A stretch of 64,000 nt of DNA, from NCBI GenBank assembly GCA_023512475.1, contig JAILZL010000010.1, forward strand, positions 1-64,000, in the 5' to 3' direction. How positions within the stretch are numbered: position 1 is the stretch's first letter; every line of letters starts with the position of its first letter. This document shows, piece after piece, positions 9,359-47,026 of this stretch. A program made the translations under genes and the position numbers. The stretch is from Syntrophobacterales bacterium (GTDB taxonomy: Bacteria > Desulfobacterota > Desulfobaccia > Desulfobaccales > 0-14-0-80-60-11). The notes below the pieces were generated by a model. That model was not told the origin of the DNA and did no database searches. It saw only the letters and a list, made by a program, of their open reading frames with translations.

Positions 9359-10180
9359 TCACTCGGGCCGGACCCGGCGGGGCAAGGGGATGTATTCCAC
9401 CGCCGGGGTCATGCGGGTGGGTTGCGGAAAGTAACTCATCAGCTCCAGGATATCGGTGGGCATGTCCGTGGACACGGGCAGGCCCAGCTCCCGGGCCATT
9501 TCCGAGGTGATGGCAAAGCTGTGGGTCCAGCGGCCTTCCGACAGGATGGTGGCCAGCTCCTCCGCCTTGTCGGGGGGGAAGTTGTCCACCAGAAGTTCGT
9601 AGATGCTCCAACGCACCTCCCCGATGGCCATTTCCGCCTGATCCGCCAGGACCAGGGTCTGGTCCTCCAGGTGCTCCACCGGCTTTTTGGCCACCGCCCT
9701 GAGGATGCTGGCCGCCGGGAGCTGTCCCAGTTGCGGGTCCACCGGCCCCAGCACCGCGTGCTCGCACATGACGATCTCGTCGGCTGCCAGGGCGATGAGG
9801 GTGCCGCCGCTCATGGCATAGTGGGGCACAAATACCGTCACCTTCCCCGGGTGGCGGTTGAGGGCCCGGGCGATCTGCAGGGAGGCCAGCACCAGGCCGC
9901 CGGGGGTGTGGAGAATCAGGTCAATGGGCATCTCCGGGTCCGTCAGATGGATGGCCCGGATGACCTCTTCGGAGTCATTGATATCAATGAACCGGAAAAG
10001 CGGGAAACCCAAAAGCCCCATGGTCTCCTGGCGGTGCACCAGAAGAATGACCCGGGAATTGCGCCGCTGCTCCAGCCGGGCGATGAGGCGCTTGCGGGAA
10101 AACTCCAGCAGGCGCTGCCGCAGCAGGGGCTGCAGAGCGATGAACATGAGAAAGAGCCAGAAGATCTCATTGGGGCTCAT
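9359..10180 (-). CDS. SDH-family (ClpP/crotonase-fold) membrane-anchored serine protease
   Basis: The 273-residue protein has an N-terminal membrane helix (IFWLFLMFIAL, residues 5-15) followed by a ClpP/crotonase-like domain. LILHTPGGLV (near 86-95) matches the oxyanion region, and YAMSGGTLIALAADEIVM carries the nucleophilic Ser in an M-S-G-G context as in the SDH/SppA-like group; GPVDPQLGQLPA follows as in SDH_sah proteins. It would degrade or clip membrane proteins. The ATG has a perfect GGAGGT and lies inside the end of the upstream gene (14-base overlap), so the two are coupled. Confidence 0.85.
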   Translation of the reverse strand: MSPNEIFWLFLMFIALQPLLRQRLLEFSRKRLIARLEQRRNSRVILLVHRQETMGLLGFPLFRFIDINDSEEVIRAIHLTDPEMPIDLILHTPGGLVLASLQIARALNRHPGKVTVFVPHYAMSGGTLIALAADEIVMCEHAVLGPVDPQLGQLPAASILRAVAKKPVEHLEDQTLVLADQAEMAIGEVRWSIYELLVDNFPPDKAEELATILSEGRWTHSFAITSEMARELGLPVSTDMPTDILELMSYFPQPTRMTPAVEYIPLPRRVRPE

Positions 10181-10508
10181 GGTGACCTCCTGTCTCCCGG
10201 GTGCGGACGGCATCCACCGCGGCATAGCCCCACAGCGCCGCCAGGGCCAGAAACGGGATCAAAAACAGAGGGTGGCGGAACACGGCGATAAGCACCACCG
10301 CCAGCACCTCCCGGGTGAGGGGCTCGGGGTAAAAGACCGTCATATATTCCCGGGAAAACAGCACCAGCCCCGCCAAAAGCAGGAGCCCCACCAGGAGATT
10401 GGCGCCCAGAAGCAGAAGCACCCCCTTGCGGGTGTCGTGCCGGTAGAGCTGCCCCAGGCCGGGAAAGACACACAGAGAAAGCAGCAAGGCAATCAGCGGG
10501 CGGCGCAT
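10167..10508 (-). CDS. Small multi-pass membrane protein
   Basis: This 113-residue protein has three hydrophobic segments (residues 4-20, 28-52 and 77-97). The N-terminus LCVFPGLGQLYRHDTRKGVLLL resembles the P-G-L-G-Q-x-Y turn of TM2/DUF5683-type small membrane proteins. Its 3' end overlaps the SDH-family protease gene by 14 bases, suggesting that it helps anchor or regulate that protease (inference). Its own promoter lies so close that the transcript would start at or next to the ATG. Confidence 0.7.
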   Translation of the reverse strand: MRRPLIALLLSLCVFPGLGQLYRHDTRKGVLLLLGANLLVGLLLLAGLVLFSREYMTVFYPEPLTREVLAVVLIAVFRHPLFLIPFLALAALWGYAAVDAVRTRETGGHHEPQ

Positions 10509-39906: not shown

Positions 39907-41154
39907 TTACGCCGCCAGGCGCCCCTGTTCATAGAAGACCGGGGCGGTGGGCAGCCCCGCCAGGGCTTGGCGGCCGGCCCGCACCATGAGGCCCCCGATG
40001 ATGAGGTTGGTCATGATCACCGCGGGGTCGGGCTGATAGACGCAGGCCTCCCGGGTGCGCCGGGCTTCCTCCTGGGCCCGGCCGCTCACAATGGCCTCCA
40101 GCCCCAGGAGTTCCGCCGGTGTGGGGCCCCCCTCTGCTGGGTGATAGACCACCACCTGGCCGGCCTCCACCCCGGCGCCGCCGCTCACCAGGATCTTCCC
40201 CTGGGCGCGGCAGGCCTCGCTTAAGAGCACCCGGGTCTCGAAATTGTCCACGCAGTCGAACACCGCGGCATAGGGGGTGAGGTCGGTGGCCTCCGTAAAG
40301 GACTCCACCCGGCCCTCGGCCCGGGCCCCGTAGAGCTCCTGAAGCCGCTTCGCCAAAGTCAGGGCCTTTCTCTCCCCCACCGCCTCATAAAACAGGATCT
40401 GCCGGTTCAGGTTGGTGGTCTCGATGGTGTCCGGATCCATCACCACCAGGCGGTTCAGGCCCGACCACACCAGTCCCAGGGCCACCACATTCCCCAGGGC
40501 GCCGGCGCCGATGATGAGAAGAGGGCCCTCGGCCCCGGGAGCCGGGTGCCCTGCGGGCAGCGCCGCCAGTGGCGCCGGTGGCCTCCGGCTCATGAGCCGG
40601 TTTTTCACCTCCTCCAGGACCAGTCCTGCCAGGACGAGGGCCAGGGCCGCATCCTCCGGGGCGGGGCGGGGAAAGCTGAAGTCGGGCAGCACCGCGGCCA
40701 GCTCCTGAGTCTCCCGGCCGGGGAGACAGGTGAGAAAACGGCCCTCCAGAGCCCTTTCCGGGCCGGTCACCAGGGCCCGCACCAGCGGCATGCCGGTCCG
40801 GCGCCCCTCCTCCATCAGGATCTTGGTGGCCAGACCGTAGCGGCTTAAGTCCACCAGCACCTGGCAGCCGGCAAAGATCCGGGCCATGGCCGGGTGGGTG
40901 CACCAGCCCTCCAGATGGGCCAGGGAGAAATCCGGGTTGAGGCGGCGGGCGGCCTCCAGCAGGCGGGGTTCCAGCCCCGGGGCCAGCACCGTGAGGCGGT
41001 TCAGCCCCAGGGCGGCGGCCCCGGCCACCACCAGGGCGGTGAGGAGATCCGCCTCCCCCACCACCCCCACCCGGGCCTGGGACAGGAGCTCCTGACGCCA
41101 GCCGGGGATGCGCAGCTGCCGGTCCAGCCGTTCAGAGAGGCGGATATGGGTCAT
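39907..41154 (-). CDS. Tandem E1-like (ThiF/MoeB fold) activating enzyme
   Basis: The 415-residue protein looks like two ThiF halves. The C-terminal half (residues 205-400) is active-type: LIIGAGALGNVV with the ATP loop at 216-221, MDPDTIETTNLNRQ (239-252) with the Asp and Arg that hold ATP, DCVDNFETR (300-308), SGGAGVEAGQVVVYHP, and Cys371 in a position that could form the thioester. The N-terminal half (1-190) keeps the strand-helix pattern (VGVVGEADLLTALVVAG) but lacks the Gly-rich loop and the N-x-N-R motif. This pseudo-plus-active layout recalls eukaryotic E1 enzymes. It ends the operon at 39.9-45.3 kb. Confidence 0.88.
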   Translation of the reverse strand: MTHIRLSERLDRQLRIPGWRQELLSQARVGVVGEADLLTALVVAGAAALGLNRLTVLAPGLEPRLLEAARRLNPDFSLAHLEGWCTHPAMARIFAGCQVLVDLSRYGLATKILMEEGRRTGMPLVRALVTGPERALEGRFLTCLPGRETQELAAVLPDFSFPRPAPEDAALALVLAGLVLEEVKNRLMSRRPPAPLAALPAGHPAPGAEGPLLIIGAGALGNVVALGLVWSGLNRLVVMDPDTIETTNLNRQILFYEAVGERKALTLAKRLQELYGARAEGRVESFTEATDLTPYAAVFDCVDNFETRVLLSEACRAQGKILVSGGAGVEAGQVVVYHPAEGGPTPAELLGLEAIVSGRAQEEARRTREACVYQPDPAVIMTNLIIGGLMVRAGRQALAGLPTAPVFYEQGRLAA

Positions 41155-41160
41155 GGATGG

Positions 41161-41343
41161 TCAGGACTCCCAGGAGGCCGTGATCCCCCTCGAAAAGGCG
41201 GCCGCGGCGATGAAAAAGCCGGCCTGAGGAGTCAGTGGGGTGAGGGAGAGCTTTCCTGCAGGGGGAAAGTGAGGGGGGAAAGTGATCCCGGCGCCGGGAC
41301 GGTTCCACCCAGGGTGGAGGAGAATGCGCCGGCCCGGACCCAT
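41161..41343 (-). CDS. Possible small protein between JAMM and E1 genes
   Basis: A 60-codon ORF exactly fills the gap: its ATG lies eight bases after the JAMM stop, with GGGGGAGG directly before it, and its stop lies six bases before the E1 ATG. The product (MGPGRRILLHPGWNRPGAGI...) has a Pro-rich middle and a hydrophobic AGFFIAAAAF segment. Third-position GC is lower than in the neighbours, so the ORF may be chance. No family is recognised. Confidence 0.35.
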   Translation of the reverse strand: MGPGRRILLHPGWNRPGAGITFPPHFPPAGKLSLTPLTPQAGFFIAAAAFSRGITASWES

Positions 41344-41351
41344 CCTCCCCC

Positions 41352-42146
41352 TCACACCCGCTCCAGTTTCTCCAGGCGGTAGCGCAGCGGGGTGATCTTC
41401 TCCCGCACCTCTTCCAGAAGGGCCGCTTCCTCCAGATGCTCCCCCGGGGCGGAGTCGAGAATCTCCAGCTCCACCTCCCGGTGGCTCACCTCCCGGCGCC
41501 CGGTGAGAAGGCCCTGCCGGAGATAGTGGATCTCCTGCCGGTGCCAGCCGTCGTCCCCTACCACCAGGGCATAGCAGAAGCCCCCCAGCACCGTCTCCCA
41601 CAGCCGGACCCGGCTCACCGGGACATCGGTGACCAGGGTGACGCTCCCCCGGGAGAGATCGGCGGTTTTTTCCTCCTCCTCCGTCAGGAGGGCCACATCC
41701 TGGATGACCACCTCCCGTTTGGCCACCGGGCGCTTCACCAGGGTGGAGACGTAATCCAGCACCACCGCCTGGTTGGCCGCGTCGAGGACGGAGAAGGTCT
41801 GCAATTCCAGGCTGCCGTGAGAGTGCACCCAGCCGTTGATCACCAGGTGGCCGGGGAGGGCCTCCTGAAAGGCGGCGATGCGCTCGGCCCCCACCCGGGT
41901 GAACTCCGCAAAATTGTCATCATTGCGGGGCAGGCCGATGTCCACCACGATCTCCGGCTCCTCCCGGCGGCCCAGGGTGAAGCCGTACCACTCGAAGCTC
42001 TCCTGAAAGAGGCGCCGCACCGCCCGGTTGAAGGCGAAGGCCTTCTCCAGGGCCAGGCGGCGGATGCAGAGCTTAAGGGGCAGGCGGGCCAGCTCCACCT
42101 CCCGGGCCGGCGGCCGCCGCAGCTCCTGCAAGGATCTCAGCTTCAT
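41352..42146 (-). CDS. JAMM/MPN+ metalloprotease (deubiquitinase-like)
   Basis: The 264-residue protein carries a full JAMM motif: Glu52 in [11 protein letters not shown], then H108-S-H110-G with Ser119 and Asp122 ([16 protein letters not shown]), matching H-x-H-x8-S-x2-D. His108, His110 and Asp122 bind zinc and Glu52 activates water. Enzymes of this class remove ubiquitin-like proteins from targets or trim their C-termini. The C-terminal 100 residues are a helical/strand extension of unknown role. The ATG overlaps the stop of the ClpX-like gene (ATGA). Confidence 0.85.
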
Positions 42147-43246
42147 GCCAGGCGCTCCCGCACAAAGGCTTCATCCACCACCAAGGGCCCGGTGTAGGTG
42201 CCGGGGAGGCGGAACATCTCCTCAAAGAGGATGCGGTGCAGCACGCTCACCAGCCCCCGGGCCCCGGCCCCTTCCTGCCGGGCCCGCTCCGCCACCAGGG
42301 TGAGGGCCTCATCCGTGAAGGAGAGGTCAATATCCCAGGCCTTGAGATCATTGATGTAGGCCAGCAGGGGGCTGTCCGCGCTCTGGGTGAGGATATTCTT
42401 CAGGTCCCCGGTGGTGAGCCCGTGGAACACCACCTTCACCGGGAAGCGGGCCACCAGCTGCCGCTCCATGCCGAATTCCACCAGATCATCCGCACTCACC
42501 AGCTCCCGCCATTCCCCGGAGATTTTCTGCCTGGCCAGCCTCTTTTTGACGATGCTCCCCAGGGTCTCAAAGACCCCGCCGGCAATAAAGAGGACATGCT
42601 TGGTGGAGAGGCTGAGGCGCTCTTTCCCCATCTCGATGGTGTTGGTCACCCCTTCCACCAACCGGAGGAGCCCCTTCTGCACCCCTTTGCCGGAGACATC
42701 CCGGGTGGTGGTGACCTCCGCGGCGATCTTGTCCAGCTCGTCCAGATAGACGATGCCCATCTGGGCCACCAGGGGGTCCCCTCCGGCGGCGATGAGGAGG
42801 TCCACCAGGATGTCCTGGGTGTTCTGCCCCACATAGCCGGTTTCACTGAATTTGGTGAGGTCCTCCACCACGAAGGGCACCCCCACCAGTTGGGAGACGA
42901 TCTCCCCGGAATAGGTCTTGCCCACCCCGGTGGGGCCGATGATGAGGATGTTGGCCTTGGGGGTGCGGGTCTGCTTCAGGGCGGTTTCCCAGTCCAGCAC
43001 CCCTGCGGCCCGGGCCTCCTTGAGGGCCGCCGCCAGGCGCCGGTAATGGAAGGCGATGGCGGTGGCCAGGACCTTCTTGCCCTGCTCCTGGCCGATGACA
43101 TGCCGGTCCATCCGGGCCTTGAGGCTGGCCGGGGTGTGGTTGAATTCCAGAATATGCGCCAAGGCGGCTTCGGTCTGTCGGTCCCGGAAATCCGCCAGCT
43201 TGGCTTCCAGGCGCCGCCGCCGGGCGTCGCCGAGATGATCGATCAT
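42143..43246 (-). CDS. ClpX-like AAA+ unfoldase without zinc domain or ClpP loop
   Basis: The 367-residue protein aligns with the ClpX core: Walker A GPTGVGKT (104-111), the pore loop TGYVGQ (136-141), Walker [10 protein letters not shown] (166-174), [29 protein letters not shown] and sensor-2 GAGARGL (326-332). It lacks the four-Cys zinc domain at the N-terminus, which is replaced by a charged helical region. Between [11 protein letters not shown] and SADDLVEFG the loop carrying the IGF tripeptide that docks on ClpP is missing. It is therefore likely a ClpP-independent unfoldase. It overlaps both neighbours by ATGA. Confidence 0.9.
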
Positions 43247-43734
43247 GGGTTCTGCTCCTGACTTTCCTGGGCCTGGGCCACATATGCCTCGAGGCGCACC
43301 CTCAGGCGCTGCCTCTCTTCGTCCTCCCCGCCCTCCGTCCGGAGGATCTCCCGGGCCAGCAGGGTGGCGAAATGCACCCGGCCCAGCACCTCCCCGGGGA
43401 GATCCGGCCGCCGCGCATACAACGGCTGGGAGAGACGGAGCTCCTCCACCTCCCGGGCCCAGGCCAGATAGGGGTTGTCCCACCGGGCGAGGATGGTCTC
43501 CGTCAGTTCAAAAGCCTGCCGGGGCAGCAGGGGGAAAAGGGGCGGCCGCCACCGGGGTTTGGCCCGGGGCAGCCCCCGGGGGAGCAACCGCTCCACCCTG
43601 AGCTCCTCCGGGTCCAGGGGCGTCAGCAGCCCCTCCCCGGCCCGGGGTTCCTGAAGCAGTCCCGCCACCACCGCAAAGGCGCTGGCGCACCAGGGGGCGG
43701 GGTCCCGCCGGGGCGGACGCAGCCGCGTCTTCAT
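43243..43734 (-). CDS. Unknown helical protein of the Ubl operon
   Basis: The 163-residue protein has a basic N-terminus ([15 protein letters not shown]), a Pro/Arg-rich middle ([19 protein letters not shown], near 55-73) and a long helical C-terminal half ending in [15 protein letters not shown]. No catalytic motif is visible. It starts one base after the E2-like gene and overlaps the unfoldase gene by four, so it is part of the same machine. It could be an adaptor that links tagged proteins to the unfoldase (inference). Confidence 0.7.
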
Positions 43735-43735
43735 C

Positions 43736-44956
43736 TCAGAGATAGCGATTCTTCACCTCCACCCGGCCGGAGAGGACCCGGGGATCCTCCGGCGACAGGC
43801 GGTAATCTTCAAAACTCACCAACTGCTCCCCGCGGTGGCGGTCCAGGCTGTGGTAGCCGTTGCGCCGCCGGGGGTTGTACCCGTAGTAGAGGGCGTTCAG
43901 GCCCGCTTCCAGGGCGGCGATGATCTCCCGGGGCCCCGCGGTCAGCGGCACCTGATACTCCTGGGGCAGACAGATCTCCTGCCGGGGGGCATGGCGCCGC
44001 AGGAAGGGGTGCTTGTAGGTCTCCCACACCACCGGCCGGAGGCGCTCCCGGGTGGAGACCGCCACCCGGCAGTCCGGGAAGAGATACAGGCGGCCATAAT
44101 AGTCCTGAAGGAGATACTCCCCGGTGCGCCGATAGACCCAGTAATCCCCGGCACTGCGGCCATCCGGGAAAAATCCGAAGCCGTCGATCTCCATCCCCCC
44201 CTGATCGCGCAGATAACGCAACAGGGCCCTGCGCAGCCAGGGTTTTTCCCCCTGTTGTCGGTTAAGGGCGAGGCGGCGGGCCACCCGCTGGCGCTCCCTG
44301 CTGATGATGAGGGCCCGCAGGGCCTTCTCCAGCCACCGGTCCAGATCCGCCCCGAATACCCGGCCGGCAGGAGGAGGCGGGAGAGAGGCGGCCTGGGCCT
44401 CCAGGATCGCCAGGCGGCCCTCCAGCTCCTCCGGGGCTGCTTCCTGCCGGGCCCGCTCATAATAAGGGGGGGGGATCTGGAGGCGCCGCACAAGAAAGTC
44501 GAGGACCGCGTCCGGGCCCGGGCGGGTCCGGCCGGGGGTGGGTCCCAGGCGGACGAAATGCGGCAGCACCTCAAAGACCAGGGTGGCCAGCCATCCCTCC
44601 AAAACGGGGTCGTCCGCCACCGGCAGCCCCAGCTCCCGGCAGACCGCCTCCCGGGCCTGCTGATACTCCCGGGGCCATAAACGGTCATAGGAGGTGACCA
44701 GGGAAATCAGACGCAGGGCAGGAACATACTCCCCGGCCTCGGAGGTCTGGAGGGAAAAGGGAAGCGTCGCTGACTCAGGAGAGGCGGACAGGCACCGGAG
44801 ATCCCGGGCCACCTGGGGATCCAGAAGCAGGGGCAGGCAGAGAAAGCCGTCCGGCGTCACCAGCTGGGGGCCCGGGTCCCACAGGGTCGGAAGGGACGGG
44901 ACGGCGGTCCTGATGCTACCCTCCCTCCTGCGGCCGGATGGCCCGGATGGCCACAT
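43736..44956 (-). CDS. Protein with a C-terminal E2-like region
   Basis: The product is up to 406 residues. The N-terminal 250 are helical and of unknown fold. Residues 285-362 resemble a ubiquitin-conjugating enzyme: strands YYGRLYLFPDCRVAVSTR, then TYKHPF (His316-Pro317), EICLPQ with candidate catalytic Cys329, and a following helix REIIAALEAGLNALYYGYNP, as in the H-P-N...I-C-L...helix-P of E2 enzymes. The call rests on this pattern and on the operon. The start is uncertain: ATG at 44956 lies inside the Ubl gene, while GGAGGGAGGG points to translation starting near 44914 (ATC) at the Ubl stop. Confidence 0.6.
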   Translation of the reverse strand: MWPSGPSGRRREGSIRTAVPSLPTLWDPGPQLVTPDGFLCLPLLLDPQVARDLRCLSASPESATLPFSLQTSEAGEYVPALRLISLVTSYDRLWPREYQQAREAVCRELGLPVADDPVLEGWLATLVFEVLPHFVRLGPTPGRTRPGPDAVLDFLVRRLQIPPPYYERARQEAAPEELEGRLAILEAQAASLPPPPAGRVFGADLDRWLEKALRALIISRERQRVARRLALNRQQGEKPWLRRALLRYLRDQGGMEIDGFGFFPDGRSAGDYWVYRRTGEYLLQDYYGRLYLFPDCRVAVSTRERLRPVVWETYKHPFLRRHAPRQEICLPQEYQVPLTAGPREIIAALEAGLNALYYGYNPRRRNGYHSLDRHRGEQLVSFEDYRLSPEDPRVLSGRVEVKNRYL

Positions 44957-45281
44957 AGAAATAGCGCTCGCCGGCCTCGGTCTCCTCCAGAGTGGCGCAC
45001 GCCAAAGGAGAGCCCGGCAGCTCCCGGCCCCGGCACAAGAGCTTGCCGCCCTTCAGCTGGCGCCGGATGTCCTCCAACACCAGCTGCTCCTCGATACTCA
45101 GGTCCTGGCGTTCCAGGGCCTGCCGGCAGAGCTCCGCCAGGTCGGCATGCTCATAGTCCCCGGCCTCGAAGATGGCCACCAGCCCCTCCGCCGCCTGGCC
45201 GGGAAGGATCTCCAGCACCAGAGGCAGCCGCTCGGGAAGCGGCGCCTGGACCCTTTCTTCCTTAAGTTCCGGTGTGCTCAT
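44916..45281 (-). CDS. Candidate ubiquitin-like protein ending in Gly-Gly
   Basis: The 121-residue protein ends RAIRPQEGG with a diglycine directly before the stop. The C-terminal half can be matched to ubiquitin: GGKLLCRGRELPG against the LIFAGKQLEDG turn, ATLEET against the TL helix turn, and ERYFYVAIRAIRP against the last strand and tail. The N-terminal half has two short strands (PLVLEIL, LVAIFE) and helices, so it is larger than ubiquitin. Being first in an operon with E1, E2-like and JAMM genes makes it the likely tag. A strong promoter lies 80 bases upstream. Confidence 0.65.
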   Translation of the reverse strand: MSTPELKEERVQAPLPERLPLVLEILPGQAAEGLVAIFEAGDYEHADLAELCRQALERQDLSIEEQLVLEDIRRQLKGGKLLCRGRELPGSPLACATLEETEAGERYFYVAIRAIRPQEGG

Positions 45282-45360: not shown

Positions 45361-45389
45361 AGTTTAAATTACAGCGGGTAAGCTGTCAA
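45361..45389 (-). promoter_or_regulatory. Sigma-70-type promoter of the Ubl operon
   Basis: A perfect TTGACA (45384-45389), a 17-base spacer and TAAACT (45361-45366) lie in an AT-rich patch in front of the Ubl gene. The leader would be about 70 bases. Confidence 0.7.
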
Positions 45390-45412: not shown

Positions 45413-47026
45413 TCAGGAGGCGGACCCCAGAAAGGTCAAGACCCGGGCGGCGGCGGCACTCCCCTGGGAGACGCTGGCGGTGATGTCCCGGGGTCCCAGG
45501 CAGGTGCCGGCAAAAAAGACCCCCGGGGTGCGGGCATCCACCGGAGCCAGCACCGGGTCCGCCGCCTGGTAAAAGCCGCAGGGATCCCGGGGTCCGGTCA
45601 GTTCCTCCAGCGCCGGCACCGGGGGGGGCGGAGCCAGGCCCACCGCCAGGACGGCCAGATCCACCCGCAGGCGCCGGGGCCCGCCCCCGACCAGGGGCGC
45701 GGTCACGACGGTCACCCCCCCGGCCCCGTCCGGCTCGATGGCCCCCGGCAGGCCCTGCTCCAGACGGATGCCCGCCTCCGTCGCCCGGCGCAGCAGATCT
45801 TCCGCCCCTTTGCTCACCAGACGCAGGTCATTGAAAAAGACGGTGATCTCTAGCCCGGGGTCGTGCTCTTGGGCGATGAGGGCCTGCTTCAGGGAGGCGG
45901 CACAGCAGATGCTGGAGCAATAGGGGAGAAAACGCCGGTCCCGGGAGCCGGCACACTGGATGAAGGCCAGACTCCGCAGGGGCCGGCCGTCGGGGCCCAC
46001 CAACGCCCCCCCGGTGGGTCCGGTGGCGCACACCAGCCGCTCGAATTCCAGACCGGTGAGCACCCGCCGGTCGTGACCGTAATGATATTCCCCCTTGAGG
46101 CGGGGGCTGTAGGGCACCGCCCCGGTGGCCACCACGATGGCCCCCACGTGCAGGCGCCGGGTCCGGGGCCGGGCGGCCAGGTCAATGGCCTGACGCTCGC
46201 AGGTCCTCTCGCACAGGCGGCAGTCAATACAGTATTCCCGTTCCAGCGTGGCCCGGAGAGGTACCGCCTGGGCAAAGACGATGCGGATGCACTTGCGGGA
46301 GGAGAGCCCCAGATTCCAGCGGCTGGGCAGGATGACGGGACAGACCGAGCTGCAGGCGCCGCACCCCACACAGCGGCTCATATCCACAAAGCGGGGCTTT
46401 TCCGTGATCTCCACCCGGAAATCCCCGGCCCGGCCGGTGATCCGCTCCAGCTCCGCCCAGGTGAGGAGCTCGATCAGGGGGTGGGAAGCGGCCTCCACCA
46501 GCCGGGGCCCCAGGATGCAGATGGCACAGTCCAGGGTGGGGAAGGTCTTGTCCAGCCGGGCCATGGTGCCGCCGATGGACAGGGCGGTATCGAAGAGGTG
46601 GACCTTAAGCCCGCCCTCCGCCAGGTCCAGGGCGGCCTGCACCCCGGCGATGCCCCCGCCGATGACCAGGACCTCCCGGGAGCGGGGTAGGACCTTGGGG
46701 GCCGGAGCGGGGGCCCGGGCCAGCGCCGCGGCCACCCGGGCGGCGGCTTCCTCCAGGTCTGCGGCGGTGAGGAGATCCACCACCGGGGGGACCGCTGCCG
46801 CCCGGGGGTCCCACAAGGCGCCCAGCCGTGTGGGTCCGCAGGCGGCAATGAGCACTTCCCCGGCCGCCGCCAGGGCGTCCAGCTCTTCCAGCCCCCCGGG
46901 CGTGCATAGGGCCGGGGCGAGGTACACGGGGACGCCCAGGTTTTCCAGGCGTCTTGCCAGGGCGGTCACCTCCGCCGGCAGGTCCGGGCAGGGGCAGAGA
47001 ATCACCCGGGAAATCTTCGTCTCCAT
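45413..47026 (-). CDS. HdrA-like flavoprotein with Fe-S centres
   Basis: The 537-residue protein has an FAD motif VIGGGIAGVQAALDLAE (near residues 120-136), then FPTLDCAICILGP with the HdrA Cys pair, a ferredoxin-like RCVGCGACSSVCP (near 216-228) and a second cluster CIDCRLCERTCERQAI (near 265-280). AFIQCAGSRD and CCAASLKQALIA are further HdrA signatures. HdrA proteins split electrons in flavin-based bifurcation or feed heterodisulfide reductase-like complexes. Its usual partners HdrB, HdrC or MvhD are not present, so it is an orphan copy. Confidence 0.9.
   Translation of the reverse strand: METKISRVILCPCPDLPAEVTALARRLENLGVPVYLAPALCTPGGLEELDALAAAGEVLIAACGPTRLGALWDPRAAAVPPVVDLLTAADLEEAAARVAAALARAPAPAPKVLPRSREVLVIGGGIAGVQAALDLAEGGLKVHLFDTALSIGGTMARLDKTFPTLDCAICILGPRLVEAASHPLIELLTWAELERITGRAGDFRVEITEKPRFVDMSRCVGCGACSSVCPVILPSRWNLGLSSRKCIRIVFAQAVPLRATLEREYCIDCRLCERTCERQAIDLAARPRTRRLHVGAIVVATGAVPYSPRLKGEYHYGHDRRVLTGLEFERLVCATGPTGGALVGPDGRPLRSLAFIQCAGSRDRRFLPYCSSICCAASLKQALIAQEHDPGLEITVFFNDLRLVSKGAEDLLRRATEAGIRLEQGLPGAIEPDGAGGVTVVTAPLVGGGPRRLRVDLAVLAVGLAPPPPVPALEELTGPRDPCGFYQAADPVLAPVDARTPGVFFAGTCLGPRDITASVSQGSAAAARVLTFLGSAS

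Follow-up and report, generated by a model that had tools for sequence, protein, structure and literature searches.

We identified a six-gene operon that, with a probability of about 0.6, encodes a reversible chromosomal ubiquitin-like (Ubl) conjugation system whose dedicated unfoldase works independently of ClpP and is paired with a JAMM protease. The operon lies in a 64,000-nucleotide stretch of contig JAILZL010000010.1 from a Syntrophobacterales bacterium of the phylum Desulfobacterota (GCA_023512475.1); this whole stretch is called the window below. At positions 39907-45281, six linked open reading frames on the minus strand encode, in this order, a ubiquitin-like protein (UBL), an E2-like protein (E2L), a helical protein (HEL), a ClpX-like AAA+ ATPase, a JAMM metalloprotease and a tandem E1-like enzyme, as the first-pass annotation of the window had claimed. 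Covalent protein tagging by this system is probable. Genes, conservation, co-occurrence and intact catalytic residues were observed directly, and all biochemical steps are inferred. The chances that the unfoldase may act on the tagged proteins appear about even.

Conservation and co-inheritance of the operon

Profile searches were carried out separately with E2L, JAMM and UBL over 395 genomes of the window's phylum. Strong matches to all three were found in the identical 20 of the 395 genomes and in no others. The positive genomes represented seven families; within the window's own order 12 of 18 sampled genomes were positive, and outside that order the distribution was patchy. One extra weak match each for JAMM and UBL (two genomes) was rejected, since on inspection both were unrelated proteins. 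Beyond the phylum, the search was limited to one scan in which six peptides of the window's ClpX-like protein were matched exactly against all GTDB species, a test that divergent relatives elsewhere could escape. It yielded 12 loci, assigned to Desulfobacterota wherever a taxon was given, and each of them held the remaining genes as far as the contig extended.

The gene set recurred in about 30 loci, indicating that the operon did not arise by chance. Lack of conservation in other genomes had been named beforehand as a finding that would speak against a conjugation system; instead, the gene order was strongly conserved across genera and families, the commonest arrangement being UBL-E2L-HEL-ClpX-JAMM-E1. 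The E1 gene came first at six loci (L004, L006-L008, L011 and L013), and in most loci the ClpX-like and JAMM genes overlapped by 1 or 4 bases. The operon is a real, conserved and co-inherited unit.

UBL and E2L

The 121-residue Gly-Gly protein predicted by the first-pass annotation was confirmed and ends in RPQEGG. The last five residues of the UBL domain, PQEGG, were invariant in 25 sequences, and the tails following Gly-Gly varied from 0 to 151 residues with unrelated sequences, as would be expected if UBL were made as a modifier precursor that has to be trimmed. In two Desulfobacca-type lineages a GNAT acetyltransferase was fused directly after the Gly-Gly of UBL. Such a fusion at L035:5818-6633, found also at L003, L005 and L036, recalls the eukaryotic ubiquitin-ribosomal protein fusions.

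The AlphaFold2 model of UBL (mean pLDDT 86) showed the element order E-E-H-H-E-E-E (beta-beta-alpha-alpha-beta-beta-beta). Its top PDB fold matches were LC3B, LGG-2, GATE-16, the TBK1 ubiquitin-like domain and Atg8, with a best E-value of 0.013 and each individually below significance. For the beta-grasp fold expected of a Ubl there were a confident model, a matching topology and best matches in the Atg8/LC3 family, but no significant match, and a ubiquitin-like fold of UBL is supported but not proved. When UBL was aligned by hhalign with eukaryotic ubiquitin, the register was right at the Gly-Gly and the score was not significant. No curated Ubl family was matched by the UBL members in Pfam or by the window's UBL in PADLOC, and the profiles of UBL, E2L and JAMM gave no meaningful match to PDB sequences.

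For E2L, the motif YKHP(F/L)L, or its R variant, was present in every member including the most distant, and a Cys followed 12-13 residues past the His. The predicted E2L model (pLDDT 85.5) contained a helix, a beta-meander, the His-Pro, the Cys and, 13 residues later, a further helix, which is the UBC order of elements. When this model was compared with the PDB by Foldseek, the five top probabilities were all E2 entries (8ieg Rad6, 7kzr UBE2T, 7mex Ubc2, the 4ccg E2-E3 complex and 1zdn E2S), at E-values of 0.6-1.3, none of them significant. The invariant KHP(F/L)L...IC, the order of elements and the ranking of E2s are suggestive of a UBC fold in the E2-like region, but no single match was significant. 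In hhalign alignments with classical E2s the register was right at HP...ICL...helix, again not significantly, and Phe or Leu occupies the position of the Asn in the classical HPN. The N-terminal half of E2L is a long helical region unlike known E2s. No match to E2L was found in the family libraries, in PADLOC (window's protein) or among viral structure models searched by Foldseek.

It is quite unlikely that E2L is not an E2 and serves instead as a substrate or scaffold, with E1 passing UBL on directly or with HEL. The insignificant fold matches agree with such a role, as does the result that none of the 25 members matched a Pfam E2 family; the invariant His-Pro and Cys, spaced as in an E2 and likewise followed by a helix, and the E2 identity of the most probable fold matches do not. 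We regard E2L as a likely, not proved, E2 on the basis of its motif and model.

E1 and JAMM

The C-terminal half of E1 contained a ThiF domain (110 bits) with all ATP-site residues present; GAGALG, N248, R251, K263 and C371 were invariant. Matches in the PDB included Uba1 (both halves), SUMO E1, MoeB, Cap2 and ATG7. The N-terminal half was a degenerate Rossmann copy with an RQ motif, homologous to the C-terminal half (hhalign 1.5e-5, 162 columns). This homology indicates a tandem E1 with one inactive and one active half, as in conjugating E1s and in agreement with the first-pass annotation. Cys371 sits where the ATG7 alignment runs out and, judged from its conservation, is likely to be the thioester site.

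All metal-site residues of the JAMM protease were present, so that its description as a complete JAMM/MPN+ enzyme stands; E52, H108, H110, S119 and D122 were invariant in 24 sequences. There are 8 residues between HxH and Ser, compared with the 7 commonly quoted. The Prok-JAB family was matched by 11 of the 24 members (best E-value 2.5e-4), and Rpn11 aligned to JAMM at the metal motif.

The same enzymes could serve a sulfur carrier of the CysO/Mec+, QbsE/QbsD, ThiS or MoaD type, in which adenylated UBL would be converted to a thiocarboxylate and JAMM would release the product or trim the precursor. The host bacteria stand close to sulfate reducers, E1 scored well on ThiF and MoeB models, and Ubl, ThiF and JAMM without an E2 form a known sulfur-transfer set (PMC1779556). 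However, no rhodanese, cysteine synthase, sulfurtransferase or biosynthetic gene was present in the conserved set, and a sulfur carrier needs neither the unfoldase nor the E2-like protein with its His-Pro and Cys, both of which are constant here. As the tandem E1 also resembles conjugating E1s, we consider sulfur transfer improbable.

ClpX-like ATPase and HEL

The ClpX-like ATPase has retained its motor, with Walker A and B, the GYVG pore loop, the Arg finger and sensor 2. The IGF loop, which docks ClpX to ClpP, was absent and the RKH region shortened in all 26 distinct ClpX-like versions. Neither a match to the zinc domain zf-C4_ClpX nor a HbYX-like tail was found in the protein. Its ClpX scores of 257 and 221 bits fell short of the equivalog cut-offs (359 and 371), and it also failed the HslU equivalog cut-off. 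In the window's genome ClpP adjoins another ClpX-family gene and HslV is near yet another, indicating that the operon's ClpX-like copy is an extra one. At two metagenome-assembled loci (L009:5977-7074 and L012:2406-3361) the ClpX-like gene was interrupted or internally gapped, through decay or assembly error.

AAA+ rings usually serve peptidases, and ClpP and HslV are both encoded in the genome. UBL tagging could accordingly lead to proteolysis if the ring passed unfolded conjugates on to a peptidase such as ClpP or HslV and so acted as a bacterial counterpart of the proteasome. The missing IGF loop in all versions and the lack of a HbYX-like tail argue against this, as do an operon without a peptidase and the failure of the genome's extra proteasome-like peptidase to track the system, so that this outcome is very unlikely.

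That peptidase, encoded on contig 13, was considered as a partner of the system and rejected; it was present in 5 of the 20 positive genomes and in 4 negative genomes, without co-occurrence. The proteasome/HslV-like protein (L078, G000:C13:20795-21502) begins with Met-Thr, is distinct from HslV and is encoded just downstream of a DprA-like gene. Of the 395 genomes, 9 contained it, and these 9 all belong to the window's order.

No locus with a complete stretch lacked HEL. The protein evolves fast (mean identity 36%), with five invariant residues, none obviously catalytic. No family match to HEL was obtained, including none in PADLOC, and no relation to the N-terminus of E2L was detected. From its gene position we would guess that HEL is an adaptor.

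Genomic context

Sets of E1, E2, JAMM and Ubl are known in defence operons, and the E1 ThiF core matched PADLOC E1-E2 models. Anti-phage defence of the Bil/Bub/CBASS-tail type, in which UBL would be attached to proteins of the phage or of the host upon infection and the unfoldase would be the effector, might also explain the patchy occurrence outside the window's order. On the other hand, UBL, E2L, HEL and JAMM had no PADLOC match, and none of 79 flanking proteins matched PADLOC at 1e-10. The flanking genes varied between families and looked like ordinary chromosomal genes. In plasmid and phage searches E2L was found in neither collection and JAMM was not found on plasmids. The 12 positive genomes among the 18 of the window's order suggest stable inheritance. 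Because of the ordinary flanks, the lack of PADLOC neighbours and the lack of plasmid or phage matches, housekeeping or a role under stress is more likely than a role in defence, which we rate as unlikely.

Proposed mechanism

We propose that JAMM would first trim the tail past Gly-Gly from the UBL precursor, as the invariant PQEGG and the variable tails suggest. The tandem E1, with its conserved residues, would then adenylate the UBL C-terminus and carry UBL on Cys371, from which UBL would move to Cys329 of E2L and on to lysines of target proteins. The ClpX-like ring, which lacks the canonical loop for docking to ClpP, might pull on proteins or complexes that bear UBL, and HEL might be its adaptor. 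Alongside, JAMM, whose gene overlaps that of the ring, would remove and recycle UBL, much like Rpn11 beside the Rpt ring. Extraction like that by Cdc48 would fit the finding that the ClpX-like gene is always linked to the set and that its product has lost ClpP docking. More tentatively, the six proteins may form a complete tag-and-extract pathway in which E1 and E2L, as a dedicated pair, attach the Ubl, and a ClpX-derived ring without ClpP docking, JAMM and a helical adaptor unfold or extract the marked proteins without degradation, as a convergent analogue of ubiquitin-Cdc48 or Rpn11-Rpt.

Several observations weigh against a conjugation system coupled to an unfoldase. They include the insignificant fold matches and alignments of UBL and E2L and the replaced Asn of E2L, all described above. 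The constant gene neighbourhood is the sole basis for linking the tag to the unfoldase, and no E3 candidate was seen in the gene set. Pairwise distances of the six proteins correlated at 0.81-0.95 (all pairs), which speaks for a common system, although the shared species tree contributes to these values. In one genus (G211, G316 and G334) E1 was encoded elsewhere in the genome, unlinked, and in the draft genome G139 E2L was on a separate contig from UBL, HEL, the ClpX-like gene and JAMM. The conjugation model of the first-pass annotation is nevertheless well supported: the element orders of the two predicted models are compatible with a beta-grasp and a UBC fold, and the gene order recurred in other genomes.

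Gene layout and neighbouring genes

The coordinates of the operon are given in Table 1. The tight joints noted in the first-pass annotation (ATGA or one-base) were found at E2L/HEL (1-base gap), HEL/ClpX-like (4-base overlap) and ClpX-like/JAMM (4-base overlap); JAMM and E1 were separated by 197 bases. The annotated E2L ATG overlaps UBL by 41 bases and relatives all start about 27 codons later, so the true E2L start is probably near 44875, about 27 codons downstream of the annotated one. A good promoter ahead of the operon had also been claimed. Within 6.2 kb there was no second promoter-like site, and shuffling gave an expectation of 0.3. The site was conserved at L037 and L038, two loci from the same genus, and a third relative has a similar one.

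Table 1. Features of the operon in the window
Feature	Length	Position	Strand	Details
Promoter-like site, sigma-70-type		45361..45389	-	TTGACA-17-TAAACT; about 80 nucleotides upstream of UBL start; basis: consensus match and conservation
UBL, putative ubiquitin-like modifier	121 aa	44916..45281	-	ends ...RPQEGG; Gly-Gly codons 44919-44924
E2L, E2-like protein	406 aa (as annotated)	43736..44956	-	His316-Pro317 44006-44011; candidate thioester Cys329 43970-43972
HEL, helical protein	163 aa	43243..43734	-	
ClpX-family AAA+ ATPase	367 aa	42143..43246	-	Walker A 42914-42937; GYVG pore loop 42827-42838
JAMM/MPN+ metalloprotease	264 aa	41352..42146	-	E52 41991-41993; HSH 108-110 41817-41825; S119; D122 41781-41783
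Tandem E1-like enzyme	415 aa	39907..41154	-	GAGALG 40492-40509; candidate catalytic Cys371 40042-40044

Directly upstream of the operon and on the same strand, the window encodes an HdrA-like FAD/4Fe-4S protein (45413-47026). This neighbour was conserved only in the window's genus and in one other genome of its family. A membrane-anchored protease-like open reading frame with a ClpP fold (SppA/SDH-type) was located at 9359-10225 on the minus strand; its CLP_protease score was weak and it looks ordinary.

Comparison with known systems

The closest described gene set is the type 6d operon of Iyer et al. (2006), which consists of Ubl, JAB, E1, an E2-like protein and an alpha-helical protein (PMC1779556). 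The list of parts nearly coincides with that found here, namely a small Gly-ending Ubl, a JAB, an E1, a stand-alone E2-like protein and a helical protein. In type 6d, however, no AAA+ ATPase was described and the E2 is without the classical His (PMC1779556), whereas the operon of the window encodes a ClpX-like ATPase and an E2L with His-Pro.

The E1 core is related to those of CBASS Cap2/Cap3 and 6A-MBL systems, as Cap2 was among the PDB matches and the NCBIfam 6A-MBL model scored 54 bits. Unlike in those systems, E2, E1 and JAB are here separate genes, there is a dedicated Ubl, and no nucleotidyltransferase or MBL partner is encoded. Type 6d presumably corresponds to the PRTRC systems; when the PRTRC models (A, B and C families) were searched, only the ThiF core was matched, and its 45 bits lay well below the cut-off (145 bits). 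In a viral collection, a Ubl-type cluster with weak similarity to the operon was noticed (L064:3831-7098, IMG/VR UViG_3300031987_000009), with consecutive genes for an E2-like protein (HPN...IC), a JAB protease, an uncharacterised protein and a ThiF-type E1.

The closest known functional relatives are the Bil/Bub systems, in which Ubl, E2, E1 and a JAB-type protease carry out eukaryote-like chemistry. An unfoldase of the ClpX type is not known from them. CapW/CapH/CapK regulators are frequent in Bub operons (PMC13373217), whereas no PADLOC family adjoins the operons reported here.

The combination of a Ubl-conjugation set with an unfoldase was not found in the family libraries or the literature searched, is not known from any described operon, and is new as far as could be checked. 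The Ubl, E2-like and JAMM families are likewise new, being absent from the libraries searched, and the natural Ubl-GNAT fusions could serve as ready protease substrates.

With ClpX and HslU the ATPase shares the AAA+ family and common motor motifs; it differs from ClpX in having neither the zinc domain nor the IGF loop and in being encoded with JAMM instead of ClpP. The likeness to the Rpn11-Rpt ring and to Cdc48/p97 is one of analogy only, in that genes for a JAMM deconjugase and an AAA+ unfoldase occur as a pair within a Ubl system. Here the ring is of the ClpX family, and there is no 20S core and no Ufd1/Npl4. To our knowledge, the bacterial cases described so far either stop at tagging or rely on Pup, an unrelated system. 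The broadly conserved chromosomal set of six proteins reported here makes a bacterial coupling of Ubl conjugation to an unfoldase directly testable.

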